Of a stretch of 64,000 bases of DNA, positions 15,830 to 54,520 are shown piece after piece (positions within the stretch are counted from its first letter, which is position 1; each line of letters begins with the position of its first letter). Both the position numbers and the translations under genes were made by a program. The notes beneath the pieces are model-generated. The model did no database searches. It saw only the letters and a list, made by a program, of their open reading frames with translations, and was not told the DNA's origin. The stretch covers positions 2,914,001 through 2,978,000 of the forward strand of contig OZ024845.1 of assembly GCA_964017145.1 (NCBI GenBank), read 5' to 3'. Source of the stretch: Agrocybe praecox (taxonomy: Eukaryota > Basidiomycota > Agaricomycetes > Agaricales > Agrocybaceae).

Positions 15830-15835
15830 TTGATA

Positions 15836-18819: not shown

Positions 18820-19122
18820 TTTGATAGTATTGCGCATACGAAACGTTCTTAGTCGTAACAAAAGAACTAGATACCTCTATACCTCTACCAAACTTGACCG
18901 TAGAGATCCATCACCATTACTTCCCCGACCAACGACGAACTACGCCTACGCGGCGACACAGAGGACTTCTCCTCTGATAGTACAGAAACCCCTGAAAGAA
19001 ACTTCGGAACCCCAAACGACGACAACGACTATAGTTACACCCCCATCCCACAGACAAACTACGTAGACCCCTTTACTGGTCTACCTATCGGCATTGAAGC
19101 TACTACCATTGTCATCCCTACC

Positions 19123-20241
19123 ATGCCTGACCCCGGAAATAACCCTGCCGCACCGAGCACCGATAAAAATTATCGACTCAGAGTGCCATTCGACTACGAC
19201 GGAGACAAGAGGACCTTCATTGACTTCATGCAGCTCGTCCAGATCTACATAACAGGAAACTCAGACTCTTTCAAAACCGACAGCTCAAAAATCCTCTTCG
19301 TCATTTCCTATCTCGTAAAAGGAGAAGCCAACTCCTGGAGAAGAAGCTTCATGCTAGCCAAACAAAAAGCAGCCCAGAAAGCGGGAAGAGCCAACATCGA
19401 TCTAGGGACATGGAAAGACTTCGACACTGCCCTAAACAAAGCCTTCCAGTCCATCAATAGCAAGAACGATACTTTGTACCAACTTAACCACCTAAAAATG
19501 AAAGGGAACACTACCGCCGAAGAACACGTTGCCACCTTCAAGAACCTCGTCGTCGACGCCGAAGTAAGCGTCTTCGACGATCTTCACCAGAAATTCGAAG
19601 AAACCCTTCCGGAACACCTCAGAGAAAGAATCGACTTCCAGAAAACCCCCAACAGAATCGAAGAATGGTACGACGCCGTCATTGAGGCCGACAACAAATT
19701 CCGACGCCTCAAAGCCTCCCTCAATCGCACCCCTGTCAACCGAAACAAAGGGGAGATCAACAAAAATCTACGAAGGAACAACAACAACAACAACAGCAAC
19801 AACAACTACGTTCCCAGAGGGAGAACGTACTACTTCTCTCAGAATCAACCTCATCGACAACCCGAAAGAGACCCCAATGCCATGGACGTAGATGTCCTTT
19901 CCATGAACGAACGCACCATCCTCATGAAGAAGGGTGCATGCTTCAACTGTAAAGGGATCGGACACCTCGCACGAGACTTCCCCAAACCACGAGGTTCTCG
20001 CCCCTCCTACAATAGCAACAACACAAACCATCGACAAGGGTCCTCCAACCCCAACTATTGCGGCAACAACCCGAACAACAAGAAACCCTCTGTCAAGGAT
20101 GTGAATTCCTTCATCCCAAACATGTCACACGAAGAACGGGCACAAGTCTTCTGCACCTCTTTCGGAGGACCGGAAGAACAGGCCGACAAAGGACCAACCT
20201 ATGAGGAAGGACCAACCTATGAAGAACCGGGTTTTCAGTAA
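19123..20241 (+). CDS. gag: Gag polyprotein of the chromovirus
   Basis: A 372-residue ORF with ATG at 19123. Residues 20-210 have the helical capsid character of Ty3/gypsy Gag (GDKRTFIDFMQLVQIYI, WKDFDTALNKAFQ). An Asn-rich stretch comes next, then one zinc knuckle at about residue 273 reading CFNCKGIGHLARDF, in which the fourth ligand of the usual CX2CX4HX4C is Phe. The knuckle normally binds genomic RNA for packaging, so this copy may be impaired. The last residues are a short repeat of GPTYEE. The stop at 20239 directly follows a slippery heptamer that feeds ribosomes into pol. Confidence 0.92.
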   Translation: MPDPGNNPAAPSTDKNYRLRVPFDYDGDKRTFIDFMQLVQIYITGNSDSFKTDSSKILFVISYLVKGEANSWRRSFMLAKQKAAQKAGRANIDLGTWKDFDTALNKAFQSINSKNDTLYQLNHLKMKGNTTAEEHVATFKNLVVDAEVSVFDDLHQKFEETLPEHLRERIDFQKTPNRIEEWYDAVIEADNKFRRLKASLNRTPVNRNKGEINKNLRRNNNNNNSNNNYVPRGRTYYFSQNQPHRQPERDPNAMDVDVLSMNERTILMKKGACFNCKGIGHLARDFPKPRGSRPSYNSNNTNHRQGSSNPNYCGNNPNNKKPSVKDVNSFIPNMSHEERAQVFCTSFGGPEEQADKGPTYEEGPTYEEPGFQ

Positions 20242-23200
20242 AGGAGGCTGCCTCGACGTCAGTGACTCCTTCATTTTCTATATCACATGTATTGGTTGCG
20301 CAAATAGACAAAAAATCTATTTATATTCCCGTCTCTTTTAAGAAAACCAATACATCAGAAAACGTCGAAGAAGAAGCACTCACAGATACCGGAGCATCCG
20401 GCAAGTTTATCGACGAAGAATACAGACGGAAATTGAAACTTCCGAAAATACCACTAAAAGAAGCACTTGACGTCTACAACGTGGACGGAACCTTAAACAA
20501 AAAAGGAACCATCACCCATTACGTCAAAATCCTGCTAACTATCGGCGGAAGGACTAAATGGGGATCCTTCTATTGCACCGGATTAGGAAAGCAGAAGATC
20601 ATCTTGGGACTGCCATGGTTCCGAGAAAACAACCCAAACATCAATTGGGAGACGGGACATGTTTCCTGGAAAATCAAAACCAAAGAAGTCAGAACCACCA
20701 GAATCAAAAGAACTGGAACGATCAAAACCAAGAAAGAAGACACAAGGGACCTCGATCTTTTACTTCAATATATTAACGGAGAACTACACCAAAACGAACC
20801 CGAACCCGAATGGATCAGAGTCAAAACCACCGCCTCTCAGACTCTCGCTCAGAAACACGAAGAAGTCAAAAAAGAAAGACCGACAAAAGAAATCGTCCCG
20901 AAACAATTCCATGAATTCCTCAAAGTCTTCGATAAAGAAGCGTCCAACCGATTCCCAACTTCCAAACCTTGGGATCATAGAATCGAAATGAAGGAAGGAT
21001 TTGAACCAAAATCCTTCAAAACGTACAACCTCACCCCAGGAGAAACAGAAGAACTGGACGCCTTCCTTGAAGAACAACTCTCTAAAGGGTATATCCGACC
21101 GTCAAAATCCCCAATGGCCTCCCCGTTCTTTTTCGTATCAAAAAAGGACGGAAAGTTAAGACCATGCCAGGACTACAGATATCTAAACGAATGGAACGTC
21201 AAAAATGCCTATCCGCTCCCCTTGATCTCCGAACTGCTTGACAAGCTCAAAGGCGCCAAACTATTCACCAAGTTTGACGTCCGATGGGGCTACAACAACA
21301 TCAGAATCAAAAAGGGAGACGAATGGAAAGCTGCATTTAAAACCAACCGAGGACTTTTCAAACCAACTGTGATGTTCTTTGGGATGTGCAACTCCCCTGC
21401 CACGTTCCAAGCTATGATGGACCACGTCTTCAAAGGCCTAATCTCAGAAGGATTAATCATTGTCTACATGGACGACATCCTCATCTTTGCCAAAGATAAG
21501 AAACAACTAGACAAAACCACCTGAAGGGTCCTTAGAAGGCTCCAAGAAAATGACCTATACCTGAAACCCGAAAAATGCTCTTTCGAAAAGACGAAAATCG
21601 ACTACCTTGGAATGATCATCCAAGAAGGAAGGATATCCATGGATCCAACCAAACTGAAAGGAATCCGAGACTGGCCAGTCCCAAAAACCGTCAAACAAGT
21701 TAGATCGTTCTTAGGATTTGGAAACTTCTATCAAAGATTCATCCGAAAATATTCGGATATCACCAAACCCCTAAACAATCTTCTACAGAAGAACAAAGGA
21801 TTCCTCTGGAACGACGAAGCCCAGAAAGCCTTTGAAACCCTAAAACAGAAGTTCACAGAAGAACCCGTCTTAATGATGCCCGACACCTCCAAATCCTTCC
21901 AAATTGAATCAGACACATCAAAATACGTGTCAGGAGCCGTCCTCACTCAGCTCGACAACAACGGGAGCAGACACCCCTGTGCATTTATTTCGAAAACCTT
22001 CAACGAAGCTGAACGAAACTACGAAATCTACGATAGAGAACTACTCGCTATTATTCAAGCGTTACAGGAGTGGAGACACTACATTCAGGGCTCCGCTTTC
22101 GAGACCACCATTCTCTCAGATCACAAGAACCTGACCTACTTCAGAAACGCCCAGAAACTGAACAGGAGACAAGCCAGATGGTCGCTGTACCTCTCCGAAT
22201 TCAACATCAAATTGATACACACTCCAGGAACCAAAATGATTCAGTCCGACGCCCTATCCAGAAGACCGGACTTATGCCCAGAAGAAGATCACGACAACGA
22301 AAATAAGACCCTACTGCCAGACAATTTATTTGTCAATCTGATCGACACAGAACTCCAAGACAGAATCGCGAACTCCGACAAACTCGACCTTGATGCAGCG
22401 AATGCAATCAAATTCCTATTAGAAAAAGGACCAACAGAACTACACAATAAACTCGAAGATTGGACCATCGAAGAATTCAAAGGAAAAAACATCCTATTTT
22501 ACCAAGGAAAAAACTATGTGCCTAACGACCAAGCTCTCAGAAGGACTATCGTCAAAAAATACCATGACACGCTCACCGCCAGACACCCAGGAGAACTGGA
22601 AACCTTTAACGCCATCCAAAAATACTACTGGTGGCCAGGACTACGAATGTTCATAAAGAACTATGTAAAAGGATGCGGACTATGCCAACAATTCAAAATC
22701 AACAGGAACCCCACCAAACCAGCCTTCCAACCAACTGAAGGAGCTAAATCCAACAGACCGTTCGCGAACTGTTCTATGGACATGATCACAGATCTACCAG
22801 AAATCAATGGATACGACTCCATCCTATCCGTTGTGGACCATGGACTTACTAAGGGGGCAATTTTCATCCCTTGCTCGAAAACCCTTACCGAAGAACAAGC
22901 CGGAAAACTCCTTCTAGAAAACCTCTACAAACGATTCAGTCTCCCCGACAGCATCATCTCCGACAGAGGACCACAATTCGCAGCCAAGGCATTTCGAGAA
23001 CTCCTGAAACAGCTAGGAGTCGAATCCAAACTGACCACTGCCTATCACCCTCAAGCAGATGGAACCACCGAAAGATTTAATCAAGAAATCGAAGCGTACA
23101 TAGCCATATTTTGCTCAGCAAACCCAGAAACCTGGGAAGATGCTATTCCAACTTTGGAATTTACACACAACGACAGAAGACATTCGGACAGACAGAAATC

Positions 23201-23840
23201 ACCTTTCGCTCTTATGCTAGGAACCGAACCCTTAGCAATCCCTACCACATTCAAAAACACCAAATTCCCATCCATCGAAGAAAGACTCCAAAACCTCGTC
23301 AAAGACCGAGAAGAAGCCAACACCGCCCACGAACTAGCCCGAGCCTGAATACTCTCCAGAAGAAAAGGAAAACCGATCACGTTCAAAAACAGACCAAAGG
23401 TCTGGCTCGATTCCAGAAACCTGAAGACCTACAATAACAAGAAACTGTCACCACGAAGAGAAGGGCCGTTCAAAATCATCGAAACCAAGGGACCCCTATC
23501 CTTCAAGCTGGAACTCCCCAAGACATGGAGAATACACAACGTATTCCATGCAACTCTCCTCATGCCCTACACAGAAAACGAAATCTATGGGCCGAACTTC
23601 CCTGAACCACCCCCAGAATTGATTAACGAAGAAGAACATTACAAAGTCGAAACCATCCGATCACATCGGAAACAAGGCAAACCGAAGAAGGGACAACCCC
23701 AGAAATATAAATACCTCATCAAATGGGCCGGATATTCAGTCAGCAGCAACTCGTGGGAACCCACAGAAATGTTCGGAACAACCGGAAAGAAAATTCTGAA
23801 CGACTATCAACGACGACATCAACTCCCAATCACTGCCTGA
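20223..23840 (+). pseudogene. pol: Pol polyprotein with two premature TGA codons
   Basis: Read in the -1 frame relative to gag. Domains in order: aspartic protease (ALTDTGASGKFID, near 20370), reverse transcriptase (YPLPLISELLDKLKGAK near 21210; active-site YMDDILIF near 21465), RNase H (start DTSKYVSGAVL near 21910), integrase zinc finger (HDTLTARH to CGLCQQ) and integrase core with Asp in SMDMITDLP, Asp in ISDRGPQF and Glu in TTERFNQEIE. The C-terminal chromodomain YLIKWAGYSVSSNSWEPTEM is near 23710. TGA codons at 21522-21524 and 23346-23348 stand where relatives have arginine, consistent with CGA to TGA. The frame otherwise stays open to the true stop at 23838. All catalytic residues named are present, so the loss is recent. 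Confidence 0.92.
20229..20235 (+). promoter_or_regulatory. -1 ribosomal frameshift site GGGTTTT
   Basis: The heptamer G GGT TTT fits the X XXY YYZ rule in the gag frame, three bases before the gag stop codon region. A -1 slip enters exactly the pol frame, which is open from 20223. Downstream bases (AGGAG at about 20241 with CTCCT at about 20266) could pair into a stimulatory hairpin. Such -1 shifting is a known way for Ty3/gypsy elements to make Gag-Pol. Confidence 0.75.
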
Positions 23841-29739: not shown

Positions 29740-30100
29740 GGCCCTTCAAAGAATGTTTGCCACTGAATGTGTGCTTAGGCCTAACGGAACTGCAGTACCA
29801 TGCTACACCATAGCCCTTCTAGAGGAAACAAAAGGACAGAATGAGGATGCTGTTAAAGTGATGCTGCTCTCACTTCCTCTGGTGCGTAGTTGAGACAAAT
29901 AAAACACGTTGAGGAAGAGCTGACCTTCCACACAGGTGGAATTGAGACAGTATGGACCTTCTTTTCTTTTCGCACTTGGCGCGAAGTATTCTCAACGAAC
30001 CGTTACTCTTATAGACCATGTCATTCATAATGACCGCGTTTTACATGGCTTATGTCAATCCAATCGTTCAAGCGAGGATCACCCTTTGCAGCCAACCTGA
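29740..30100 (+). pseudogene. 5' part of an interrupted gene
   Basis: ATG 29740 opens an exon to 29881. A 54-nt intron (GTGCGT..ACACAG, 29882-29935) follows, then a second exon open up to the first base of the KDZ B terminal repeat at 30098. The repeat's first three bases, TGA, then supply a stop. The encoded ~100 residues (QRMFATECVLRPNG, GPSFLFALGAKYSQRTVTL) show no recognised domain. The continuation is not found just right of element B, so flanking DNA may have been rearranged. Confidence 0.5.
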
Positions 30101-30521
30101 TGTATCAAATACGGCAAAAAGTGGATTTGGTGATGTATCATAGAGGGTAGTTGCCCACCCCGGCAGTGATATATCATGCCTACGAACTGTGCCGGAGGCC
30201 ATCAGAAGGCAGAGGCTAGTGGGCATTGGTAAACATAGACAAATAACCTCATTTTGAGGGGTTTGGGCCTTCGGTTAGGTGCTGCAGGCGTAGTGGTTGT
30301 GTTTTACGGGCGCTGAGTGGTCTCTTTGCAGTCTATAAATATGTTCCTATTTTTCCATGGCATTTGCGCGCCTAAAAAAGGACGGGACGGGATGGATTGG
30401 CAGCAATGGATTTGGATGACGTGTTATAAATAGCGTGCTTAGACGCTATAAGTGGGCGTTGCGTTATATTTAGTTGCATCATTATATTTAGTTACATTGT
30501 TATATTTAGGAGTTCTGATTT
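30098..30521 (+). repeat. Terminal inverted repeat of KDZ B, left
   Basis: Begins TGATGTATCAAATACGGC, has an internal TGATGTATCA repeat at about 30131, and matches the reverse complement of 43367-43773 almost perfectly, apart from a short extra segment near 30470-30490. Confidence 0.9.
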
Positions 30522-30782
30522 GTCAAGTTCAATTAGTCATTTTGTCTAAATTTATTTTTGTCTGGAACATAATTCAGAATCATTATTTTCGTCACTGCAT
30601 ATGATGTTTCGTATTGATCCTGCACAGGCTACACCGATAGTAAAATGTTTAATAACACATAGGCAAGAAAGACAGAGTAAATAATATGTACATCAAGGGA
30701 TTGTAGTAATTATGTGCATGCGTAAAACGGGAAAATAAAATAAAATCATACGAAGTTGTATTGTGCCATGTCATCCGTTGGA

Positions 30783-33700
30783 CTAACCCTCCATGTCGTA
30801 GTCCTCTATGCCCAGTGCCTCCTGTTCCAAGCGGACAAAGCCATCCTCGGTTTCCTCATTATCCTGCTCGTCCTCGTCGTCCTCGTCTTCCTCGTCCTCA
30901 TCTTCCTCGTCCTCGTCCTCGTCCATCATCGACGTTTGAGGGTGGTTTTCAGGTACGTCTGTGTCTAACACGGAGATATCACGCTCAAGATGGGAGCTTT
31001 GTAGCGACTTCTTCCACAAATCGATGAAGATTTTGTCCAGAGATTCTTGCCTTTTGGCTTGCATTTCTGCGTAAGCGTCGAGGGCCTCTGCCATTTGGGG
31101 CGATGCATGCGAATGTGTACCGATTTTTTCTCGCCACTGCTTAGCCTTCCATCGAAGATATGCGAGAACCCTTCGCATTTCTTCCTTCAGAAGCAGTACC
31201 TCCTCCTTTGCCCTGCGTGCTCGCGCTCTGCTCTTTGCCCATTCAGAGAGTAAAATGTCCTCCTTCTCGTCCTCTGCACTGAATGCGCCAGGCGTCAACC
31301 AAATCCATGACAGTGTTTTCCGTGTTTCGCCAGTGCCGTCGCGACGACTCCGAGGTTCATTCAGGAGAGACAACTCTTCTTCGCTGGCCAAGTTAATCGT
31401 AGTTTGTCCATCCTCGAGTGTCCCAGGCCGACCGACTTTCTTTGGAAGTTTTGTCGGATCTTCGTAACTTCGAACATCAGAGTCGAAAAGAGGTTGATAC
31501 ATTTTTTCCCACTGGCCCAGTCCTTCTAGAGCTATCTTCGCCTGCCTTGCAACGCGATATTTGTCAACTGATCGTCGAACTCGAAGATGTACGGCATCTA
31601 TTAGGGCCCTCGAACGGGTACCCTCGCGCTGTCCTCGTACGTTCCGGTTTTTGAATAAAACCATGCGTTGTTTGAGCTTTAATGTCCGCCTTAATTCGTC
31701 CAAGGCGTCGCTGCATTGTGCAGTCCGCATTTTTGCCTCTATCTGTGGCAGACCGGGGTGGCAGATTGCTGATCTGACAGGCTCGGGAATGTGTGATGGG
31801 AGAACAATGATTGTGTCCTCGGGATGGTCAGATTTAGGGACGAATGGATCAGTGGTCGATGAGCGACTGCAATCGTTTCGATACTGCAATAAGCCCGGCA
31901 TATAGATGGCTGCAAGTAACTCCCAAGCTCGAATGCAACTCCTCAATGCATTCCGTTGCTTGGCAATTGACTCCTCTTTTCGCAGGGTGGATGAGGCGAG
32001 AGGGTCCTTGACGGTGCGGTGAAGACGACGCCTTGAGAAAGAGACATAGATAAGTATATAAGGTAGACCATAGTTATGTGGAATGAGACAGAGGGTGACG
32101 TACTGTGCGTGTTCCAGCTCAAGAGCCATGAGTATGAAATACGACGGCGATGTTCGATGAATTTGTGGGGCACCAGATTCCATGAGACGCCTTTCTTCTT
32201 CCGCAAACTCCTTCCTGACAGAGGCCTCAGAGATACCTTGACGCAGTATGTCAGTTATGTACTTGAAAAGAAAAGCGAGTTCAACACTCACATTTGCTAT
32301 CTGTGTGGTAAGGGTTGAACCTATTCTTTGGGAAGGGAGCTTGCTCCCACTCCGTGCACAACCTTTCCCACTGAGCTACGGTACTCTGGCGCAGTGTTGA
32401 AGTCAGGCCTCGATGGCTCTCGGTAAGTACGTTTCGATCGGCAACAGCTGCCCGGTAGCGACGTGCGAGGGTTTTACCCTGTCCGATATATTTCTCCCAG
32501 TTCCAAAATCCGAAATGGTCGTCCAAGACGTCATGCCTCGAGCCAGGTGCCTGCGTTTTGGTTGTATTCCCCAGAGCATTGTGTGGACTCCAAACGCGCT
32601 CCGGGCATTCACAATCAGTTAATCCAACACCGGGTAGGTAGTTGAGGGAATATATCTGATGTCCGACACTTTGATGCATGGGCTCGTGAAGTTTTGGTAT
32701 GGCAGGGGTGAGTTTGATAGCAGGTCGGGGCTTAATTTCCTCGGGCCAGTGGTCGTCAATTCGTTTGAACAGGTTTGTAAACCATTGGCAGGCCACGTCA
32801 TAGCTGATCAGAACGAGGGAGACCAGTACATTTTGGAGGGCCGAACCAACGATGTAATCCATATTAGCATATCTATAAGATAGAAATAAATTAGAACCTA
32901 TCGAATTGAAAATTATAACGCATAGAACCTTTCTCCTTTATGTAAATTACCAACACCGACTGGCAATATCATTTCTGAGCGACCACAGACAGTCATGTTG
33001 ACGCCGGTATAACGTAGACCTCGAGAGAATTTTGTATTAGCTTTGGCTAGTGCTTGAAATCCTACACAAGTGCTTATCTGATATTAAGATCAACAGAGGG
33101 AAGGAATTCGGAAAACTGAAATACATACATCCTCATCGTCGGCCCTACTGAGAACATACGCTTCATATGGCTGGCGTGGCACCATATAACCCCATCCAAT
33201 GCCCAGACCTGGATCCTGCGAGTAATTTGAAACGAGTTGATTCTTCAGCCGAAAGTTGGCATCCATGCATATTATAACCATGTAGAGAAACCTATGTAAT
33301 ATAAAATGAGAATAAGCATGATATAAGAAGGGGAAACGTACTTCATTCCATCCGGTACACTCTCCCACCCATCTAGTAAATTGATACCTGGGTAGGGACA
33401 AGAGGGACATCTAACGGCAAGCTCGCCCGACTTAGTTGCATCGACTCCAGAGGGATCATGCGCCCGACCCGCCCATTTTAACATCTTGAGATGACGCCAT
33501 TGCATTATCATGCGAAATAGGGCTCTATATCGCGACCGTCGGGGATGCAGGCCTGTGCTGTCAGTTAGTTTTTCCAGAGCACGATAAAAGTCGTAGGTAG
33601 ACGCTTTGGTGGTAAGCGCGTATTTATGTAGTTGATTTAGTAGCTCGAAGGTAGCGCAGGCTTTCGGATTGAGCTGCGTTGCAGGATAAATTCGTCGGCG

Positions 33701-34592
33701 GAGTAGTTGTAAGTGGAAAGGGATGGATCGAGTGCAGCCGCAATACTGAATTGACACCTCATGTATTCCGTTGGTGTGGAGAACTAGGAGTCTTGAATGG
33801 CAAGGTACCGGATTGTCGCAATTCAACCCAGAGTGGTTCAGTTGGATTTTCAGGCCCAGAGTTTTAAGCGTTGTATTCTCGAAATGAGTACCATTCCATT
33901 TCTTAGTGAAACGAAAGTCAGGCAGGGAAGAGAATAAAATATTGATAAATCGAAAGAAATACCTTGATTCTATGAAATGGAAGCTGGCGATGCCTCCTCA
34001 CGCAGCATGCCGCGCAGCATAAGTCGGGGATGAAGCATTCCTCGCACCGATAAAGGGGGAAACCAGGGGGATTTTTTTGCCTTGAGATACAATCCGGGCA
34101 TGTTTGATATGCGGAAAAGTCCCCTCGACCAGACCAAGACAGCATTTCCTGCAGGTATGTTTGACGGTATTGTCTCTTCCATACGACATGAGGGCGTCTC
34201 TGATATAGTTATGTTTAGTAGGATGTGCAGGGGAAAAAGTCATCCAAGTAATCACTCACCGCTATCTCGGTCCTCTTCCTCTTCTTCTTCACGGGCAACT
34301 TGCTTGGTGCATCAACCATAACTTCACTGTTTAGGACAGAGTCATACAAGTCCGATGTGGGATCGAGTGCAAAATCCTCGCTATCGGGTGGTTCCCAGGA
34401 GGGCGCGGTTTCCCAGAGACTAGCTGATAGAGTAGGATCCCGGGCCATTGGGGCACTCAGAACTGTTTTTCCTGTTCGTAGCCGCTTTCCCTCCCTTGCA
34501 TGAATTGTATCGTAGTCTCCGAATACCGGTACTTCGTCGTGATACGCATGGTTAATTGCTTTCCTCGGTTTTTTCTTCGCCCGGGCCGACAT
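30783..34592 (-). CDS. KDZ transposase, CxC2 type, apparently intact
   Basis: ATG at 34592. About seven or more exons are separated by introns of about 50-60 nt. An N-terminal basic/acidic region is followed by the CxC2 cysteine cluster (CPDCISRQ, then YRCEECFIPDLCCAACC, near 34100-33980) and the HTNGIHEVSIQYCGC block (33760). The catalytic-type motif MDANFRLKN is near 33255, with SYDVACQW near 32800 and an RVWSPHN box near 32590. The C-terminal half shows TLSWIWLTPGAF and KEEMRRVLAYLRWKAKQW and ends in a very acidic Asp/Glu tail (about 30800-30950). The family forms DDE-type nuclear DNA transposases. Length, motif order and absence of stops suggest an active or recently active copy. It is transcribed divergently from the TET/JBP gene. 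Confidence 0.88.
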
Positions 34593-34937
34593 TTAACAAA
34601 GCGAGTTCAGCGGCTGAGGTAGCCCAAAGATTCAGAGCAAGTAGATACTGCAAAGTTCAAGACTGTACGGTGGTGTACTATATTAAAGACTTGGGGTATT
34701 TTGGAACGCGTCAGGTATGCGGTCACATGACATTCAGGCTGAAAAACATTACCTGTTTGAACTTTGAACCGAATTTTGACGTTCTTTCTTGATCACTTAG
34801 CTAGTTCACCTTCATGCAGAGGAGTGGTGTGCCCAAGCCCGGGAACTCTCTCTTTTGCTTGCTTTGTTGAACGCACTCATCCCCTGTCGCCGTTATCCCT
34901 CCCGCCTTCAACTCATAAACTCATCGCTGATTTAAAA
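34593..34937. promoter_or_regulatory. Divergent promoter region shared by transposase and TET/JBP
   Basis: Only 345 bp separate the two start codons, which point away from each other. A single bidirectional promoter is likely and would co-express the two proteins. No TATA box stands out on either side. Confidence 0.5.
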
Positions 34938-36665
34938 ATGGCACAAGAGGTCCTAGCCTCATTCGACCTCGGTTGTGATTTGAGATCTTTGCTCCTAGCG
35001 ACTGGTCATCTGCAGGACCGAAATGAATCTGAACCGGACCTTTTCAGTCTATTGCCCATGTCCTCGACTGCGGAGGACGATCCACAAGACGCTATCGAAG
35101 ACTTTCAGCTTCTACCCCCTCTGGCCACAAACTCCGAGTCTGCCAGTCAGTCGCAAGACGATGCCGAACTTGACCCCATCCTCTTTAGCCTTTCACCTAT
35201 GTCATCCATCAGCGATCATTCCCAGGACGACATCGAGGACCAAGTTCACCTCCCATTACCTTCGAGCGCAAAATCTGCCAACGCCTGTCCAAACTTTTTA
35301 GCAAACGCTGCATCACCTGTATTTCCCGTCAAAAACATTCCGTGCGGAGGTGTCGAAGCAGCGAACGACATAAGCTCGAAGGAGAAGAGGAAACGAAAGA
35401 ACAAAGAGCACAGCCGAGCTGCTCGTAAGAAGAGAAAAGAGGAAAATAAATCCGAGCAAAAGATAGGCGAATACGTGGTTCGCGAGGAAATACTCAAGCG
35501 CATGGAAAACGCGAAGCCCGCTCTGTGCCAATTCGATTTTTCTGGCAGCAAAGTCACGAAGACAGCATTTATCGGGAAGGACGACGGAGTTCGGACCAAG
35601 AAAGTCCACACCATCCAGGAGGTGACAGGGAAGTTGGGTTTTAGGCTGCAGAAGTGGGACGGAAGGTAAGTCCTAACATGTTTTGCATACCAAGCTGCCG
35701 TCTCTAACTTATTAATACCCTACAGGACACCCATGCCGATCATCGACGAGCAGCGATTATTTGTTGGCCTTCTCGCCGGCCAACCAAACGCTCCTAACTG
35801 GGCGGAGTTGCATAAAGAAGCAGCAGCGGCTATGGAGACTCTCAGGCCTCGTTGCGTTCCTCGAAAGATCAAACTCAATAAGCCAATTAATCGACGAGGA
35901 AATTTTGTAGCTCTCACCACCGGCATCTCTCACGGCGGTGGACAAGAGAAACCAGGAATTCTTTGCCCCGATGGTTCCAAAAAAGATGGCCCAAATGCGC
36001 AGGTGTTGAAGGAGCTCCACCAGATTCCTACCTTCAAGAGACTGACAGGCTTCGTTTCAGGTAGGTTTGATTCGCATGTTAATCCATCCACCACGCTTGT
36101 CTAAATGATCATGACACCAGCTGCTATTGCCACATGGGCACCGGACCTCCATGCTCACTATGTTCAAACCCTACGCAATATGCACGATGCACACCCCGAA
36201 CTGAAGCGCGCTTTCGAAAACAGTATCTTCTGCGCATTTACCTACAATCTTGGTCCTCGAACGGTCTGCTATAAACATAAAGACTTCGGCAACCTACCCT
36301 ACGGATTATGCGCCATAACGTCCCTTGGCAACTACGACCCTATACAAGGTGGCCACCTCATTTTATGGGAGTGTCGCCTTGTTATCAAATTCCCTCCAGG
36401 CTCTACTATCTTGATCACCTCCGCTGCCATCACGCATTCCAACACCTCCCTCCTCCCACACGAATCGCGTTATTCGTTCGCTCAGTATACGGCTGGAGGA
36501 ATCTTTCGATGGGTTGAACACGGCTTCAAGTCTTCCGAGGAATATTACAACTCTTTGACCCCTGACCGTTTAGAGGAGGTGTTGCTCAAGGAGGCTGAGC
36601 GCTGGACCTATGGACTTTCTCTACTTCCAACCATTCCTCCACCCAACTTGACTGCCCAATATTAG
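34938..36665 (+). CDS. TET/JBP-family DNA dioxygenase
   Basis: Exons 34938-35665, 35726-36060 and 36121-36665 give a 535-residue protein. The N-terminal ~150 residues are acidic and repetitive (FSLLPMSS and FSLSPMSS), followed by a basic nuclear segment near 160-185 (KEKRKRKNKEHSRAARKKRK). The C-terminal half is a 2-oxoglutarate/Fe(II) dioxygenase domain: HKD motif at residues 407-409 in CYKHKDFGNLPYG, distal His at 460 in THSNTSL, and Arg 471 in RYSFAQYTAGG for 2-oxoglutarate. All expected ligands are present. TET/JBP enzymes oxidise 5-methylcytosine (or thymine) in DNA; fungal forms are linked to KDZ elements. Residue numbers are my own count. No stop or frameshift is seen. Confidence 0.9.
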
Positions 36666-37003
36666 TAGAATTTTGTGTAATAGGTAGAACATCGTGTATC
36701 GTCTAAAAATTGTCGTCTAAAAATACATCTTGACCTGCGTGGTGATTTCGTGCACGCAACCAAGCCTTTTTTCCAACATAATGGGAGACGAGCTCTACTC
36801 CTCTGCTAATAAAGTCAATAAATGACTAGAAGTACATTGAATATATCATCTGGTAATTTTTTAATGTCAATTTACACACACGGTGAACTCCAATTAAGTT
36901 ACAAGTCAGAATGTACACCAAACTTCAAATTCCTTAATTGGAATGTTGAAGTTCAACGAACTTAAAGCTTCAAGCTTGATCATTCACTTCGACCTTCGCC
37001 GCA
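36666..37003. other. Intergenic, inside KDZ B
   Basis: AT-rich spacer after the TET/JBP stop. It holds AATAAA-like sequence near 36809 that could serve polyadenylation. Confidence 0.4.
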
Positions 37004-37520
37004 ATGAGCTCCAAGCTTGATAACTCAGTCCTTGATAACACGCATAACGTTAAACGCCGCGCCTATTATTACAAGTAAGTGGATGCTTCATTTCAGATTT
37101 TCAATGCAATCGTCTTACGCTATTATTCACTTTGAGCAACTTACATGAAGAACGTAGGCGCGCAAGAATTCGTGCCAGAAAGTGAGTTCCGTTACTTATG
37201 GTATTGCTTGTACTTCTAAGGTTCTAAAATCTGATATGCTAACTATAGGAGCACAAATAAGAACCATTCAGACGAGTACTTGTCTGCGAAACGCGAAAAC
37301 CATCGTCAAGCACAGGCCAAGTACCGCCAGGCAAACCGAGATCGTCTGCGAATTAAGGGTGTAGAATATAGGTAACTGCCTCTTTCAATATAATGCTCGT
37401 TAACTCACAGGTTTTTTCCTCGTGCACAGAATGAAGAAAAAAAAAGAAGCCGAGACAGCAAGGGATGAGGTGGAGTACCAACACCTTATGTCTCTGGCAT
37501 ATGAATCACTGGCTTCTTAA
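37004..37520 (+). CDS. Small basic KDZ cargo protein
   Basis: Four short exons (about 37004-37074, 37136-37180, 37249-37371, 37431-37520) give about 108 residues. The protein is almost entirely Arg/Lys/Gln/Glu helix (RRARIRARK, QAQAKYRQANRDRLR, MKKKKEAET), resembling the basic region of bZIP proteins or the R/K-rich helical repeats common in agaricomycete orphan proteins. It probably binds nucleic acid. Short introns with clean GT..AG ends and a continuous frame after splicing support it. No closer family can be named. Confidence 0.55.
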
Positions 37521-37779
37521 TTTATATGTTTAACTACTTTGAGAATCCAATGATTATGAGGCGCGAAAAACCATTCTATTGGGAACAACAACAAAATGTA
37601 AAAACATTTTTCCTCAAGATGAAACTAAGTAAACTATACGGTACTATGAGTATATAGAGGGATGATATCGGAGCATGGCATAGTCATAGGGGCATAGTAG
37701 GAGCATAGGGGCATGGGAGTAATCATAGGGCATAAGAACGTAGCAAGAAAATAAATAAATAATGACCCGCCATCGCTTC

Positions 37780-40055
37780 TCAGTTCAATTCTGCGATGTC
37801 GTCGAAGTAGGAGGGGTCGATATCCGAAAGACCTGAAAATTCGCTCTCTGCATCCAACATGATCCTGTCCTCCTCGTTGGCGAGGACGGTGTAAGGTGGA
37901 GGAGGGGCATTTCCGTACGCAGGTGGTGGCGCTGTTGGGAGATCTGACGGCGGCGAATTGAAAACGAGTGCTGGAGGCGGTGGTGGTGGAATAGAATGAT
38001 GTCCAAGAGGATGCGGTGGTGGGATGCCATGAGCTCCAAGAGGAGGAGGAGGTGGAATACGAGGCACGGATGGTGGTGGTGAAAGACAAGGAGGTGGTGG
38101 CGGATCGTAGCTACCTGTACGTGCTGTGGAGACGGAAGCGAACGGAGCTAGGATGTGAGCCATAGACAATGGTGCAGAGGAACTTGAAGCAAATGGCGCG
38201 GAGTCGAAATCCGTGGTGGAAGACAGATAGGTAGTTGGGTCTGGAGTAGCTGTCGCCTCATCGAGCATGGCATCGTAGTCGAATATATCGGGGCTTTGGT
38301 CAATATGGCATCTTTTGTGTTGATTGGCGGGGGTAGATGGCGTCTTGCGTTTGAGTTGGAAAGTCGCGTTGTCATTGCCTCCATCGGCATTGATGGAGGC
38401 CTTGCCTTTACCCTTGCCTGTTTGCTGCCTCTGCTGATCGTCCGTCCTGTTGATGTTGATGTCTTCCTTCGTGTCGCCGTTGTTGCTGTCGTCGTCGTCG
38501 TCGTCGTCGGTGACTTCAATCTCGGAATAAGGCGCTGAATCGGGCATGTCTTCATAGAGAGGGGGATAGAACTTCTTGACGATCTTGGTTTTCTTGCCTG
38601 GGGTTGCATTTCGGGCCTTTCGAATAGATACGGTGCTACGGGAAGACTTTTTGACGCGGGTGGGAGCAGGCGGAGCGGACACAGAAATCGAAGGTTGAAT
38701 GGGATTTGGGGCAGGGATAGAAAACGGCGATATCATGTCAACGGCAGCCAGGATCTTGCTTGTCTGCTTCTTCGGTTTCCGAATTTCTGGGTTAGCTAAC
38801 AAGGAAGGGAAGTTTGGAATAGTTGAGGTGTTTGGGTCTTTGCCTTTAGGAGCAGTCTTGTTAGCCAAAATTGTTGCCCGATCACCTGGTGCTGAGGTCC
38901 ATTTCGCCGGGGGACGGACTGCCACATATCTTTTTGCCGATTGAATGAGACCTTGGCGAGGACATGTGCATCGCGTCCCTGCGTTTTTGCAAGGAAGGAT
39001 CTGTTCCACCTTGCAGCGCTGGCAAAGGGCATGGTCCGGAAGTACGGGCTCTTCGTCGGTAGGGAAGTCGACGTTTGGGAATTCTATATCCGAGTCCGAA
39101 TCGCTTTCGATCCAGACAGGGGCCGGATTAGCACATGCAGCAGGGGGTTGGCGAACAGGATGAGAAGTGCGAGGGCCTGGGGCAGAAATAGAAGGTGGAG
39201 GCAAAAGAGGTGGAGGCGCAGAGCCAGTCGCCAAGCTGCCGCCAGAGCTAGGTCCTAGATTCAATGCTCTGGCGACCCCGGATGATGTCGCGGCTGAAGC
39301 GAAGTTGATGAGGCGTTGACTGCGACGTGGGACCTCAGTTTCTGGGCGACCCCGAGAAGCGGGGGTTGGAGTGTTGACAGCGCGAGCAGCAGCCAACATG
39401 CGTCGATAGCAGGAGGCGTTAGCAGCTTGTGGAGGGGTATCAAGGGTGATGGCATTTTCTTTAGCGCCCGGTGCAGCGCTGGCCTTCGCATCTGGTTTCG
39501 ATGCCTCAAGCTCGCGCTGGGGACGAGCGGCGTTGGGTATGATGCTCGACTGCTGGGCAGGCTGGGAGAAAGGAGGCGCGGATGATGGGATACGAGGGAT
39601 GGACGAGGGAGCCATACCGCGGAAAAGAATGCCATCGTAGTAGGCGGTGGCCTCTTCACGGGTATCGAACCTAAAAAGGAAACAGCGCCTATACGCCGCC
39701 ACATCAAAGCGACGGACTTGACTAGGTAATTTAGAAAACATGTGAGCAATAGGAGAGCAAATGAAAAAAAAAACGAAACTTACCTCTCATGATTCAAGAT
39801 TGCAAGGGTGTCGTCTGCAACAACGACCCATGTTGCACCACCATGCGAGCCGTCGGGGTTCGCTATTTCGACATCCATGGAGTCAGCCACGGTATCTGCT
39901 CAAAAAAAAAAGTCAATGGGGTCCAAACATCAAGTTCCGGGAAACGGGCTTACTTGTATTGTGGTCCTTGTCCGAGTTTTTTGGATCTGAATATCGTAGG
40001 TTTAGAATAATGTTAGGTACATATAATACAGTTACGTACCTTTTTTCTGAGCCAT
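37780..40055 (-). CDS. Pro/Ser-rich KDZ cargo protein with viroplasmin-like N-terminus
   Basis: ATG at 40055. Three short 5' exons (about 40055-40040, 39987-39955, 39894-39784) splice to a long last exon (about 39727-37780), for about 700 residues. The first ~90 (ATWVVVADDTLAILNHE, then FDTREEATAYYDGILFRG) follow the pattern of RNase H1 N-terminal/viroplasmin-like domains. A long disordered Pro/Ser region comes next, then a cysteine cluster CQRCKVEQILPC..CTC near 38960-39030, an Asp run near 38490 and PPPP-rich repeats near 37900-38100. The same plan occurs at 12568-13635 in region A. It may bind RNA-DNA hybrids, single-stranded DNA or RNA during transposition; that is inference. Confidence 0.6.
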
Positions 40056-40737
40056 AATTCTGGTAAGAGGGTAGGTAAAACGAGGAGTGTAAAGGTGAAT
40101 TCGATGATGTCGGAGAAGGTGATTTTGCTGCCTTTTTATGAGAAGAACGAGAGCAAACAAGTGTAAAGGAAAGATGGGCCACGATTTCGATTTCTTGGTA
40201 GTGGGAAAGAGGAATAAATCTACGAAGGGTCGGTAAAAAGAAAAGTCAATTGATTCAGCACGTTTATCTGACATAAAACGGTTACATACAGGTTTTGCGA
40301 TTTCGTAAATCGTTTGGGAAGTGGTGCAAATCGCGAGCTAGCCTGAAGAGGCGCATGCGAGGTTGAAAACATCTAAGATCACAAAAATGATACGTTCAGT
40401 AATAGTTAAAATAAAATAAAATAAAAAGGAGGGGGGTTCTTCCGTACATATGCGTCCTCCGATGTTTCGGTACGTCGCTTCCATGATAGAATCGATCGGG
40501 TACTAATATAGTGAAATAAAATACCTGTAGGTTCCAAATAATTACAAAATAATCGATGTTAGTGGGGGCGTATGTTGCGAAAAAAGATAGCAATACGTAC
40601 GCAGGTGCTGTTCTATATAGTAACAACAAGACCCTTCAAGTCCGGGCCCTACCCTGCTCAAATTTTCTCCTGCCTCTTGCATCCATCTGTTGTACTCTGT
40701 CTCAATTTGGTGAAATCGTTGTCCTTACTTGTCCAGG

Positions 40738-43196
40738 ATGCCGAATCCAGGTGCTTTTCGTGGCTCGAGGAAAGAGTTCCTCACAAGCCAAAAGAATGAA
40801 TACGCTGCAGCTGTCAAAGACAACTGTGCGGCCGAGGCCCTGTCTTTGATTCAGCGTATGTACTTCAAACGGTTCCCTATCGACTTACCTCATGACGAGG
40901 AACCAACGCCAGAGTTTCTGGCCTCGGTCAACGATGACGAGCCCGATCCCGAACGCCCCCCTCCCTATGCCGACGGTCTTTCGCCAGAGGAACACAAAAA
41001 AGCGATGGATGAGTACGAGGCGCGTCAAGGACTTATTCGGCTGCGTAGGATGGTAAGTTTCTGAATCTGATTACCAAATGAAATTAGATCATGTGACTTA
41101 CATACCACCTTTGTTACGTAGCAAATCAAACGATGGCTGAACTATCAATATATGAAGGACCACGATCCCAACTCAAAGGATTCCGGGGCATACAACCCCT
41201 ACCGCATTCTTCTCCAAAAGCTCACTGGCAAGGATGGATGTCGACCTCGTCGCAAGACCGCTTCTAATGTTTGGCGCCGATCCCACCGCGACGAAATCGA
41301 AAAGCGGGTCAAAATTCACGCCGCAGCTCAAGGGATCGAGAAGAAACATTTCGCTGCACTACGGGATCGGTTCGCTAAGGAGATGTTCGGAAACTTATCT
41401 CAAGAACAGCAAAACTATTGGACTAATGAGGCCGAAGCGGAGTACACGAAAGATATGGAAAAATGGAAAATAGAAAACAATGCCACTGTTTCGACTGCTC
41501 CTGCAGATCGCCAAATGTAAGTGAATGTCATTATTCTATCTTATAAATCTCTAATGGTATCTATCGATGTGAATTAGGGCTATTCAAGGTCTAATCTCCT
41601 TTTCCCAGCCTCTGTTGGACATGATGGCGGAGGCGACTGGTTGGAAAGTCACTTTACTGGCAGGGGGTCCTGAGCCCACCCATGATGGTAAACTCAACAT
41701 GATAAGGTATTTTTCTTCTGCCTTTTACATTATAAATTTCTCATTTTCACTCAAGCATACACTCCGGCACCATACCTGGTGATATCAAGATGAATTTCGG
41801 TACCGCGGAACGCCTTCGTTATAAACAATACATTGTACCCATTTTTGGTTCTTTCTTACAGAAATGCTACAGTAAGTACATTGTTTATTTTTCCTATTTC
41901 TTTCCTATCTGATCCTTCCTTCCAGCTCCCAATGAATGTCGTTCTCGCGCGTTGAAGACGGACCACGGAGACGTGCAACTCTCATCCCTGGACTTGGATA
42001 TCAATGTCACTGTCGACGCTATTCATCCCTCAAACGCCGACCCATCTCTCAACCCGTCCAATGACCTAGCTTCTCCGCCTCCGCCTTATGTATGTCAAGC
42101 GGATGACAACTCGTCGCTGACAGTGTCATCATCCGACACGGTCCCACCTACATCTACGGTCCCTACTTCGTCCAAGGCCTTACCCTCTTCGTCCGCTGTA
42201 TGCCAGTCACCTGCATCTCTTTCTTCATCAACGGCCCTATCTTCTTCGCCTCCGGCTGCTCTATCTTCGGCTGCTTTGTTCCGGTCAGACATTCAATTTC
42301 AATCTCAGTCTACTCCCAATTCCCCCGATGTATCTCCCGTGCCCTCACCAAGGCTCTCGCGTGCTGATCTGCCGACTGAAGCCTCTGTCCCCGGTGATGC
42401 CCAGGAATCGATCTTGCCACCGCCCGCCCATCAGCCAATGGAATCTGCCACGCAGGCCATGAGCCACTCTTTATCGACTATCCCTTCCAATTCCAATGCT
42501 GGCTCCAAGCGGTCCTCAGACGCCATATCAACGCAGCATGACTCTTCTCCTGCGAAACGCGCGCGAGTGGACTCACCAAAGCCATCCATTCAAACCTCTC
42601 TGAACGACACCGCTTCTCTGGCCTTGGTACCGAATCCTTCGCCAGATTCCGCTTCGCCTCTTGCACCTCTTCCTAATCACTTTTCTTCCGCTTTGCTTTC
42701 CGTGCGAACCTCGTCAATTTCCTGGTTGCAGAAGGGCATGGAGACCTTGGAATCGAAGGACCTTGGGCCTAAATGGAAGAAACTGGTCGACATATGGTTT
42801 ACATACTCAACTGCGGATGCACTGGAAAGGATAAGTTCGCTACCTGCCAAGAATCACCCTGACGAAGTTGGGGAGTGGATGAAACGTCATCGTAATCCCG
42901 CCTTTTGCCCCAGTATCGACCACTTCAAGTTTAGCAAGACATTCATCCAGTGGTATACGATGATTCAACCAACCTGGCGTCTCGATGAAACCAGCAACGT
43001 CAAATTTTCTTTGCTCAAGGGGAATTGGGATGTGTTTCAGAAATCTGGACCCAATGGCACCCTCATCGTCATGATAGCCTTGTTCTACTGGGGGACTGCT
43101 GTACAGGACAAAGGGGAACCAGCGCAGAACAAGTGGTTGGTGTACGTAGATGATTGTTTTCGAATCTTCTCTCATTTTTGCCAGCTCTCTGAATGA
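40738..43196 (+). CDS. HMG-like KDZ cargo protein
   Basis: ATG at 40738; exons about 40738-41053, 41122-41519, 41579-41706, 41755-41870 and 41926-43196, with introns of 48-68 nt. The first 250 residues are helical, with an HMG-box-like segment (AALRDRFAKEMFGNLSQEQQNYWTNEA split across 41351-41440), then TGWKVTLLAGGPEP and FGTAERLRYKQYI. A long Ser/Pro/Thr-rich linker follows. The last ~190 residues form a second globular domain (WLQKGMETLESKDLGPKWKK, YWGTAVQDKG) seen in other agaricomycete orphans from memory. It resembles the genes at 13811-15583 and 55480-56097. It is probably nuclear and DNA-binding; the exact role is unknown. Confidence 0.65.
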
Positions 43197-43366
43197 GAAG
43201 TTTCCCATTTCTTTACATAAATACTACCCTGACGTGAATATATTTTTTTCCCTGCGCCATTCTGGTTTTTGTGAGATGAAAATAGCGAGGGTCTAGACCT
43301 TGTCTAATTTTAAATATGACATGTCAACCTATTTCGGTACAGTGCATCAATGGCATCATTAACTCG

Positions 43367-43773
43367 CAAATCAGAACTGCTAAATATAACAATGTAACTA
43401 AATATAACGCAACGCCCACTTATAGCGTCTAAGCACGCTATTTATAACACGTCATCCAAATCCATTGCTGCCAATCCATCCCGTCCCGTCCTTTTTTAGG
43501 CGCGCAAATGCCATGGAAAAATAGGAACATATTTATAGACTGCAAAGAGACCACTCAGCGCCCGTAAAACACAACCACTACGCCTGCAGCGCCTAACCGA
43601 AGGCCCAAACCCCTCAAAATGAGGTTATTTGTCTATGTTTACCAATGCCCACTAGCCTCTGCCTTCTGATGGCCTCCGGCACAGTTCGTAGGCATGATAT
43701 ATCACTGCCGGGGTGGGCAACTACCCTCTATGATACATCACCAAATCCACTTTTTGCCGTATTTGATACATCA
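43367..43773 (-). repeat. Terminal inverted repeat of KDZ B, right
   Basis: Reverse complement of 30098-30521, ending ATTTGATACATCA. It includes the same TATAAATA-containing segment and the CGGGACGGGATGGATTGG tract in inverted form. Confidence 0.9.
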
Positions 43774-44880
43774 ATATACCAGACAAGGCTGCGAGGATAC
43801 AGGCCGAGCTGGACCTCGTTGGAATGGATAGCCTTCATGACTTCTTACGAGTCTCACAGAGAGAAACTGTCTTACTTTCGGGCTTTCCTGAGCGAAGCTA
43901 TGCGGTATGTGACTGTCCGTTCACCTCAACGTCCTTTTTTTCTTGATAGTGTCACTATGTTAACTGATATTTTTTGCGTCAGTTGGGGAGCTTCTACGCC
44001 TCTGGGTGAGTACCATTTACCTGAGATGTATAAAGCCACCTCTGAACTAACTAATTCGTCAGGGCGTCCCTCATCGTCTTGGGGCCCACCATACTCCTTC
44101 CCACCACCACCACAGTTTCTTCTCCCCCTTCGTCTCCTCTGGCCACGCCGCACAGAGATGATGGAGACAACCTCATCCTAGCTGAGAAGAAATCATACCC
44201 ATACCAGTGCCCGCCGATGAAAAAATAGTGATCGTCGTTCCAAAACCTATCAGAAGCGGTGGGGTACCCATTTCCGTTTCTGTACCTGTCGTCGCGTCGT
44301 CGTCGCACTCTTCTTCTCCCTCTCACCATGCTCAGTCCCATTCCCAGCAATCCCAGTCCCAGCAGCAACGACACACTCACACCTAGACCCAGCCCTGACG
44401 TCCACGGATCTCATCCTCCGAGCTCAAGCTGCTTGTGTACCTCTATTGTACAGTCATATATGGTGTGGAGAGCCGGGATAGGTGGGATGTGATGATTGGG
44501 CGTGGGATTGGGAACGGGATGGGCGTGGCTATGGGTGTAGGTTCTGGGCACGTTGCCGTTGGCGCTGGAAAGGAGAACGCGAACGCGAACGGGCCTGGCG
44601 GCTTTGTGAGGTTCCCATTAGTCGAAGTCGAAGATGAGGTCGGATTCAAAGCGAACAAGAAGGAAGAGGAAAAAGACAAGGAGGAAATACACATACGGCT
44701 CTGCCAAAGCCGAGCAAGCTGCCCAGCTGGACGTGCAAGATACATTGCTTGCGATTCGCCTCCGGGATTTCTTGAGGGCGCAGGGTGTTAATGAACGGGA
44801 GCTGGATGTTCGGTTTGAGGGTGAGGGTCATGTGCGTGCAGAGGAAGGGGAAGAGGATTGTTGAGATGGTGTGCATGCAG
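43774..44880 (+). pseudogene. 3' remainder of a broken host gene
   Basis: Directly right of element B the frame reads RLRGYRPSWTSLEWIAFM and SYFRAFLSEAMR. Two introns (GTATGT..CGTCAG, about 43904-43981; GTGAGT..CGTCAG, about 44007-44062) follow, then LLPTTTTVSSPPSSPLATPH and a Ser/His/Gln-rich region. Further low-complexity coding-like sequence continues with frameshifts to about 44880 (LLAIRLRDFLRAQGVNEREL). The upstream exons are missing and the frame is broken, so it is a relic cut by KDZ B. No domain is recognised. Confidence 0.45.
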
Positions 44881-53152: not shown

Positions 53153-53466
53153 CTACAGTGTATCGTATATAACGATAGAAAGAGTGCCTACAGTGTAGCG
53201 CTTCTAACTGATTCAAAGATCTCTTTGAATCTTTCTATCCTAGGTGAACCCAAATAGGAAAGTAGGTATTGTAGGGGGTAGGGCGGTAGTAGGTAGGTTT
53301 GGGTAGGGTATTGAGAGCGTGGTCTGGGAATGGTAGTGGTATTGCAGCAGGGGTAGGATACAGGTATTCGGGTTGGTATTAGGACCGGGCACGGTAGCTC
53401 GAGAATCGACGTGGATTTTCGCGTCTTGCCAATACACGCGGGAATGGTTTGGATCGTGCAAAAGCA

Positions 53467-53990
53467 ATGCGCGTATATGGGGGCAGATCAGAATGGGCAG
53501 GTTGGTAGGATACCGGGTTGGGTGGAAAAGATGGGGGAACCTGGGTTGGTCATAGCACCGGGCGCGGTACTCGAGAAATACACGCGGTACTGGGATGGTC
53601 GTAGCACCGGGCGCGGTACTCGAGAATCGACACGGAAACACGCGTTTCTTGAATACACGCGGTACTGGGATGGAACAGCAAATTGAATCAGCGCGGATTT
53701 CGGCAGGTTGTGAATGCAGATTTTTAGATTTGGGGTGTCCAGGGGGCTGCATTGAGATTACTACGAGGTCACCCGGATATGAAAGTAAAGTAGACTAGAA
53801 TGTGTTTTCTTTAAATCAAATTGGTATTGATTCGTCTCGTGTGTTTGCGCGTCTATATTACCCTAACTAAATTGCTAGCCTTGTATCTTTCCGCGTCTTT
53901 GAGTGATATCGCGTTTATTTTGTAGCCCAACTAAATTTGCACCCTTGTATTCCTCACATCTTGAGTGATATGGGTATGCATGTACCCCAA
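53467..53990 (+). repeat. Terminal/subterminal inverted repeat of D, left
   Basis: Matches 62199-62722 inverted. It includes a ~48-bp tandem pair around ACCGGGCGCGGTACTCGAG (about 53553-53625) and the start of the ~60-bp subterminal array. Confidence 0.8.
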
Positions 53991-54520
53991 ATCAATTCTC
54001 ACCCTTGTATTTTACGCGTCTTTGACTGATATTGCTTAAGCAAAACGCGGAGATACGAAAGAATACAATGTTGGGTACGTAAACACGCGATATAACATGC
54101 GTCGGTGAGATATTTGTTGGGGTACAAAATAGACGCAATATCAAGCAAAGACGCCGGGATATGAAACACATACAACGGTGGGAATGTAGTGGGGTAACAG
54201 TAGAAAGGCGAGCACACAAGACACGGGCAAATGAAAGAGTACAACGGTAGGAACATATTAAAGGATAGTATGGACACTCATATTATATACAACGCGGAAA
54301 ATAAACTACGCGTAGAACACAATGGTTGGAATTAGGTTAGCCAACATAATCAACGCATTACCAGTCAAAGACGCGGAAAATGCAAGAATGAATTGAGTTG
54401 CGCTACATAATAGACGCAATATCAGTCAAAGACGCGGAAGATGGGAGGGTGGCAATTCCGTTAGGGTAATGTAAATGCACGAAAACGCGAGACGCGGAGA
54501 TATGAAGCATTCCACCGGTG
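53878..54520. repeat. Subterminal array of ~60-bp repeats
   Basis: Repeated units contain CTTGTATT, CGCGTCTTTGA, TGATATTGCG and a CCCAACTAAAT-type segment. About two and a half units point one way up to a short palindrome (TTGCTTAAGCAA, about 54026), then around five to seven units point the other way to about 54520. Such arrays near the termini of DNA transposons are commonly transposase binding sites. Confidence 0.65.

Follow-up and report, generated by a model that had tools for sequence, protein, structure and literature searches.

A probable complete Kyakuja-like KDZ transposon in Agrocybe praecox with a predicted TET-fold dioxygenase and an interior found in both orientations

In the stretch of Agrocybe praecox DNA analysed here (64,000 nucleotides, hereafter the window) lies E1, which is 13,712 bp long and probably a complete KDZ DNA transposon of a Kyakuja-like kind. 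Two short, unlike caps mark its fixed ends, while the interior has likely been flipped by recombination between the long arms that lie just inside them. The flipping is read from other copies in the same genome, because these show opposite orientations, and more than one flip of the interior is likely. The coordinates of the element and its parts are collected in Table 1.

Table 1. Features of the transposon E1 and its flanks (positions are those of the window)
Feature	Position	Strand	Description
Element E1	30080..43791	+	Complete, 13,712 bp, 5'-CA..TG-3'; based on common caps, perfect target-site duplication (TSD) and empty paralogous sites
TSD, left copy	30073..30079	.	CGAGGAT; flank read
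TSD, right copy	43792..43798	.	CGAGGAT; flank read
Cap A	30080..30097	+	CACCCTTTGCAGCCAACC; 18 bp; sole match within window
Cap B	43774..43791	-	CAGCCTTGTCTGGTATAT (inward reading); 18 bp; sole match within window
Left arm	30098..30491	+	Long subterminal inverted repeat, 394 nt
Right arm	43380..43773	-	Long subterminal inverted repeat, 394 nt
KDZ transposase gene with CxC2 cysteine cluster	30783..34592	-	Exons read one by one; Pfam KDZ, CxC2
TET-fold dioxygenase gene (predicted)	34938..36665	+	3 exons, 535 aa, HxD..N..C type; splice model, fold of homologue P0085, residues
G3	37004..37520	+	Small basic protein, 4 exons, 109 aa; splice model; relatives in E2 and E4
G4	37780..40055	-	Pro-rich with Cys cluster (authors' reading), 683 aa; splice model; relatives in E2 and E4
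G5	40738..43196	+	5 exons, 741 aa; splice model; homologue model mostly helical

Ends of the element and its unoccupied sites

A sequence-only reading had described terminal inverted repeats (TIRs) of over 400 bp, nearly identical and marking exact boundaries. The near identity holds, since the two arms are 99% complementary with four mismatches; their length is 394 nt, with a further 41-nt inverted-repeat stretch out of register with them. The boundaries, however, were placed 18 bp too far inward on each side: the element ends at 30080 and 43791, where CGAGGAT flanks both, and the arms are subterminal. Taking the arm boundaries as the element ends was given up, as there is no duplication at that point and the caps are common to different copies.

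E1 and three further copies from this 59-Mb genome share a constant sequence directly outside the arms. Over these four copies, cap A has the consensus CACCCTTTG[A/C]AGCCAAC[C/T] and cap B, read inwards, CAGCCTTGT[A/C]TGG[C/T]A[G/T]AT. The two caps are unlike, with 9 of 18 positions agreeing in a manual count, and the long inverted repeats begin at base 19. E1, E2 and E4 all start with CACCC and end with GGCTG, and TGATGTATCA or its reverse stands at the outer end of every one of their arms. Each of these copies is flanked by a perfect 7-bp TSD of its own, CGAGGAT in E1, CAAGTTG in E2 (contig C11) and TCAACGT in E4 (C5); that of E3 (C12), read by eye, is CTGAGAG.

The earlier reading had also proposed searching the genome for further TIR copies and for empty sites, and both exist. 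Arm relatives give 50 matches genome-wide, counting the two arms of E1 itself. Cap patterns were searched as the cap plus the first five arm bases (TGATG) with up to three mismatches, the reversed pattern serving as control: cap A returned 49 matches and cap B 75 (E1 included), against one for each control. A TSD of 7–8 bp accompanies 17 of 19 cap pairs (7 bp in 16, 8 bp in one, none in two). Among the 15 A/B pairs beyond E1–E4, whose outer flanks were read, a script found a perfect 7-bp TSD in 11; the pair C6:1146021-1167357 shows CCGCAAT after the cap is shifted by two bases, and C8:1729217-1732783 has the 8-bp duplication. The flanks of C1:4963580/4986760, where cap B has three mismatches and is a doubtful partner, and of C2:2328241/2355349 carry no TSD.

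Unoccupied sites were sought by comparing 800 bp on the left and 800 bp on the right of E1 with the genome. A paralogous site on C2 matches one flank at C2:1783665-1784211 (97%) and the other at C2:1782888-1783671 (95%), the two matches overlapping by exactly 7 bp, and a second site is formed by C6:1340431-1340762 (85%) and C6:1340758-1341030 (79%, from query base 3). Base by base, both are continuous over the junction, with a single CGAGGAT-like copy (one base different at the C6 site) and with no cap, arm or interior, as expected of a clean insertion. Because these sites read through the junction, the boundaries of E1 are fixed without recourse to other copies of the element. The flanks have many partial relatives in the genome, so E1 lies in repeated host DNA.

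Genes of the element and the type of its dioxygenase

The interior had been read as an intact KDZ transposon with an embedded TET/JBP dioxygenase and three more cargo genes, all five open. Gene models were here spliced by hand, with GT-AG introns, from sequence alone. The KDZ assignment is borne out by a PF18758 score of 116.3 bits against a curated cut-off of 26.6 (E 2.2e-33), alongside a CxC2 score of 131.3 bits against 27 (E 2e-38); the stretches MDANFRL, YDVACQW and ECPERVW resemble what we take to be the catalytic acids of the transposase. The three cargo genes are likewise recovered as splice models. As for openness, the dioxygenase, G3, G4 and G5 can all be spliced with no internal stop, and the translated exon stretches of the transposase are open, although this gene was read by exon and has no whole spliced model. 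In the Pfam search, G4 and G5 had no match and the sole match of G3 fell far under the cut-off. G5 has at least 74 homologues; the predicted model of one of them, P0017, is mostly helical (pTM 0.47), and its fold search returned 16 matches, none at E <= 0.001.

The complete gene set noticed in this copy recurs, in the same layout, in two other complete elements, E2 (13,643 bp) and E4 (13,816 bp). When the exons of the five genes are compared among E1, E2 and E4, Nei-Gojobori dN/dS mostly lies at 0.03–0.31, with many dS values above 1 and thus saturated; the ratio is higher for G4 exon 3 (0.53) and G3 exon 3 (0.35) between E2 and E4, and G4 exon 4 of E4 enters with just 46 of 629 codons matched. 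In-frame stops, which may be introns or damage, fall within the transposase stretches aligned from E2 and E4 and, in E4, within one exon each of G5 and G3. For dioxygenase exons 2–3, the ratio in two pairs of moderate divergence is 0.21 (dS 0.25) and 0.26 (dS 0.18), and close pairs, with few changes each, range from 0 to 0.92. The aligned part is stop-free in 25 of 30 dioxygenase copies, duplicates counted.

Linkage of these genes extends beyond the complete elements. A G5 relative lies within 12 kb of 40 of 59 dioxygenase loci, while at most 3.5% of the genome is that near; the count follows removal of three second TET gene pieces (62 to 59) and of one short G5 piece (99 to 98). In Gymnopilus dilepis, homologues of G5 and of the dioxygenase carry consecutive locus tags, on equally long contigs, in three cases (CVT26_001499/001500, CVT26_006140/006141 and CVT26_000663/000664). 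Copies that lack the TET gene lie on C24 and C159 of the genome under study. The best named homologues among the matches listed belong to Agaricales, such as Gymnopilus, Pholiota, Galerina, Agrocybe and Psilocybe. G3, G4 and G5 can be regarded as conserved partners within the element.

The dioxygenase keeps the iron and 2-oxoglutarate residues that had been noticed in it (HxD, distal His and Arg), namely H407-x-D409, H460 and R471. The HxD is present in all 30 genomic copies read, and the whole set in 28 of them. Its TET/JBP identity is upheld in part. The score against PF12851 (Tet_JBP) is 18.6 bits, below the cut-off of 34.9, so it is fold and residues that justify the family name; among 38 aligned members, 13 match this profile at E <= 0.01 (best 3.7e-9). 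The PDB, searched both by sequence and by profile, yielded no TET relative, and the 37 profile matches at E <= 10 were discarded as unrelated proteins, those shown lying mostly in the low-complexity N-terminal part. Fold comparison was substituted for these searches. The predicted structure of the homologue P0085 has a TET fold, closer to TETs than to other 2-oxoglutarate oxygenases, and on realignment CcTet, NgTET1 and TET2 all score above CMD1, which nevertheless falls in the same fold group as the model. The follow-up homologue sets held 37 and 64 of at least 100 dioxygenase homologues and 42 of at least 74 G5 homologues.

At the positions of CcTet residues 331 and 337, all 38 aligned members have Asn and Cys, which in the E1 enzyme are N412 and C418; among the 30 genomic copies the former is Asn in 28 and Asp in 2, and the latter is Cys throughout. 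AG-type TETs are defined by Gly/Ser331 with Asp337, and the PE type by HxE in place of HxD, in the accessible text of Kojima 2025 (PMC12730594); with Asn, Cys and HxD the enzyme falls outside both types. For the PU type the same source gives a residue set, in its Figure 7, and a Pucciniomycete origin; among species-named rows, in the 120 of 790 homologue matches listed, there were no rust genera and only mushroom-type genera. The Asn occupies the position of human TET2 N1387, and a preference for 5mC over 6mA is therefore predicted for the enzyme.

That the dioxygenase might serve something other than demethylation, be it base hypermodification, another substrate or a mere passenger role, we regard as unlikely while giving it real weight. 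Apart from the Pfam score and the PDB searches without a TET relative, such a role would be in keeping with the membership of CMD1, which puts a glyceryl group onto 5mC (PMC12730594, as far as its available text goes), in the same fold group, and with the Cys where CcTet has the Asp337 that it requires for 5mC, according to the accessible part of PMC11040006. Against this, the Asn standing where TET2 has N1387 could give the cytosine contact missing in CcTet, and the three TETs outscore CMD1 in the realignment; a passenger is further disfavored by the 28 of 30 copies with a full residue set and by the dN/dS of 0.21–0.26 in unsaturated pairs.

Interior orientation, arm similarity and proposed mechanism

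When the part of a DNA transposon between its terminal repeats is inverted, the event normally goes unseen, as the two ends look alike. In the E1 family it becomes readable because caps A and B differ. With cap A placed on the left, E2 is collinear with E1, while E4 has its entire interior, with all five genes, turned round between caps and TSD that stay in place. The sequence-only reading had missed this inversion. Among TSD-bounded elements, the dioxygenase lies on the cap-A strand in E1, E2 and E3 and on the opposite strand in seven (E4, C7:2890395, C1:4998985, C3:4088920, C2:11364, C8:2552317 and C6:1146021). A test independent of the dioxygenase looked for the transposase and G5 3' ends in the 1.5 kb inside each of 30 cap-A loci. 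It gave a call at 14 loci and none at 16; once three duplicate locus pairs (end of C1, start of C4) were counted once each, and with E8, a cap pair that has no TSD, included, the transposase adjoins cap A at 5 distinct loci and G5 at 6. On a dioxygenase tree of 26 rows (the 30 copies minus four duplicates), 15 of them labelled for orientation and five of these without a confirmed TSD, orientation takes three changes, two of which are forced by well-supported branches. The sister pair E4 and E8 (dS 0.25) is opposite in orientation, E8 lacking a matching TSD.

Arm length is 394 nt in E1 (4 mismatches), 536 nt in E2 (1 mismatch) and 481 nt in E4 (1 mismatch). In a comparison of the first 113 nt across 18 elements, mean agreement is 0.984 between an element's own two arms, as against means of 0.76–0.83 between arms taken from different elements; none of 20,000 permutations reached the observed own-arm mean. 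Among close relatives, the arms of the other element may be as alike as its own or more so (E2/E3, C3/C8, C2:11364/C8:2552317 and C2:1122428/C5), a failure to separate near siblings that is expected for recent copies. Recombination between arms, together with conversion, would be the simplest single cause of both the inverted interiors and the like arms.

A somewhat less probable objection is that the orientation differences are repeat assembly errors, or a few very old rearrangements, and not recurrent arm recombination. The orientations do rest on the assembly and not on raw reads, the tree forces just two changes, and E2 and E4 are old relatives of E1, with dS above 1 in many exons. Contigs of up to 5 Mb, however, suggest reads far exceeding arms of 394–536 nt; the orientations at cap A are nearly equal in number (5 versus 6 distinct loci), and the sisters E4 and E8 differ, with the same reservation about the TSD of E8. 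Far less credible is a site-specific transposon that ends at the arms and enters, either way round, a short conserved target made of both caps. Such a transposon would account for the interior found both ways between caps and for the lack of any duplicated base between arm and cap; against it, the 7-bp duplications lie outside the caps and neither unoccupied site has caps, so that caps and interior arrived together; the cap matches behind this comparison, being cap plus five arm bases, are of arm-joined caps alone.

In the favored reading, that of a transposon with fixed caps and a recombining interior, the KDZ transposase, which contains the CxC2 zinc cluster, would recognize the caps and arm motifs and would move the element by a cut-and-paste route in which the cuts are staggered by 7 bp. 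Recombination and gene conversion between the arms would account both for the turned interior and for the continued likeness of the arms. For the dioxygenase, given its TET2-like Asn, the predicted substrate is 5mC and not 6mA; by acting in trans on methylated members it would keep the family expressed. A bolder proposal, which we put forward tentatively and consider doubtful, makes the arms a flip switch: the block between the asymmetric ends would be reversed recurrently, with the arms kept identical and two expression states available to each insertion, and a 5mC-specific Asn/Cys TET would keep the family unsilenced.

DNA methyltransferase exons give six matches at four places in the genome. 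E1 has a CpG ratio of 0.95, that is, no depletion, in contrast to 0.53–0.71 in four 4-kb stretches of window positions 1–16000, where decayed KDZ fragments lie. This fits methylation pressure together with an E1 that is young or protected; as a test of protection the ratio is not decisive, because E1 may simply be young. Escape from methylation silencing through the carried TET would also fit. In the available text of PMC8889193, oxidized methylcytosines are described as enriched in transposons of Laccaria and Coprinopsis.

Comparison with known transposons and TET enzymes

Fungal DNA transposons with TET/JBP genes, and their possible escape from silencing, have been published (Kojima 2025, PMC12730594, here and below as far as its accessible text goes), and the linkage of KDZ and TET/JBP in mushrooms, which the sequence-only reading had called known, is documented there for the TET+ Kyakuja of Agaricomycetes. 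As in E1, their KDZ transposase adjoins a TET/JBP-type gene, and both have 5'-CA..TG-3' ends and a 7-bp TSD. The likeness lies in the ends, TSD and gene pairing as described. Kyakuja are described there without TIRs, whereas the family reported here has arms of 394–536 nt starting 18 bp inside its ends; the interior in both orientations is a feature of the E1 family, unlike Kyakuja as described, and the Kyakuja enzymes are of the AG type, with Gly/Ser331 and Asp337 in place of Asn and Cys.

Long repeats also occur in KDZ1–KDZ3 of Cryptococcus neoformans, elements of 9–11 kb with long inverted repeats of 139–241 bp that have been observed to move (PMC12810828, in its accessible part). In that account their repeats are terminal TIRs, their TSDs are 4–8 bp and their cluster is CxC1, in contrast to CxC2 in E1, and the part consulted makes no mention of a TET gene such as the one E1 carries. 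Among the enzymes, CcTet of Coprinopsis cinerea (PDB 8jkk, 7w5p, 7vpn) is about 14% identical to the modelled homologue and has Gly331 and Asp337 (PMC11040006, available text) where the E1 family has Asn and Cys. Human TET2, about 15% identical to the same homologue, is an animal host gene and not transposon-borne. The name KDZ itself reportedly stems from a 2014 PNAS paper.

For arms behind asymmetric caps, interior inversion and the Asn/Cys enzyme type, no report was found in the literature searched, which included few subscription papers. TET-bearing KDZ transposons are already known, and the architecture of E1 and its enzyme type are a new variant. The unlike caps make flip rates, and any effect on silencing, measurable, and with its exact ends and empty sites E1 offers a clean model for asking if a TET carried by a transposon shields the family that encodes it. 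The Asn/Cys enzyme extends transposon-borne TETs past the AG type and comes with a sharp prediction, activity on 5mC and none on 6mA.

Family members lacking a dioxygenase match and short relatives

Two members of the family of E1, the complete 13.7-kb KDZ element of the window, at C24:44565-71674 and C159:26570-40128, carry KDZ matches and matches to G5, the fifth E1 gene, and the genome search for the dioxygenase returned no match at either locus. The C24 member is bounded by a perfect 7-bp duplication, and both members could serve as TET-less controls. Five short relatives, whose caps and arms are the family's own, carry 7-8-bp duplications (Table).

Coordinates of features in the window and in the genome
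Feature	Location	Detail
Inverted repeat	window 3864-4739 / 17551-18426	876 nt, 100%
Decayed KDZ and CxC1 fragments	window ~5475-7206	between the two 876-nt repeats
Ty3/gypsy-type retrotransposon	window 18904-23348	frames Gag-like, reverse transcriptase, RNase H, integrase
Open frame, second KDZ element	window 56789-58996	735 codons; KDZ domain 156 bits
L009, AG-type TET fragment	C12:2719489-2722959	Ser331, Asp337 by position
Short relatives (3.6-5.4 kb)	C2:1122428-1127599
	C5:2482536-2486494
	C6:1150819-1156213
	C1:4621700-4626343
	C8:1729217-1732783

Other mobile sequences and mirrored contig ends

Besides E1, the window contains another KDZ element (53465-64000), whose frame is flanked by inverted repeats measuring 543 and 1277 nt, 99-100% identical, the right arm running up to the window edge. 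The 12.8 kb enclosed by the 876-nt repeat is CpG-depleted, with observed/expected ratios mostly of 0.53-0.71. On a larger scale, the chain of elements at the end of C1 (4.96-5.02 Mb) recurs in mirrored order at the start of C4 (16-74 kb); this shared chain is a duplicated chromosome end or a haplotype copy.

Other TET types in the genome

Weak Tet_JBP matches form a third group (L014, L015, L016, L018 and L019, also L010-L013 and L017), in which a motif beginning HRDxxD takes the place of either the AG set or HxDxxN. On separate contigs, five of these loci are almost identical to each other; L015, which belongs to these five, sits within E3, the 40-kb copy on C12. The AG-type fragment L009 has a TAG at the match edge and a KDZ match about 3 kb away (C12:2717056). 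L009 represents a second TET type within a single genome.
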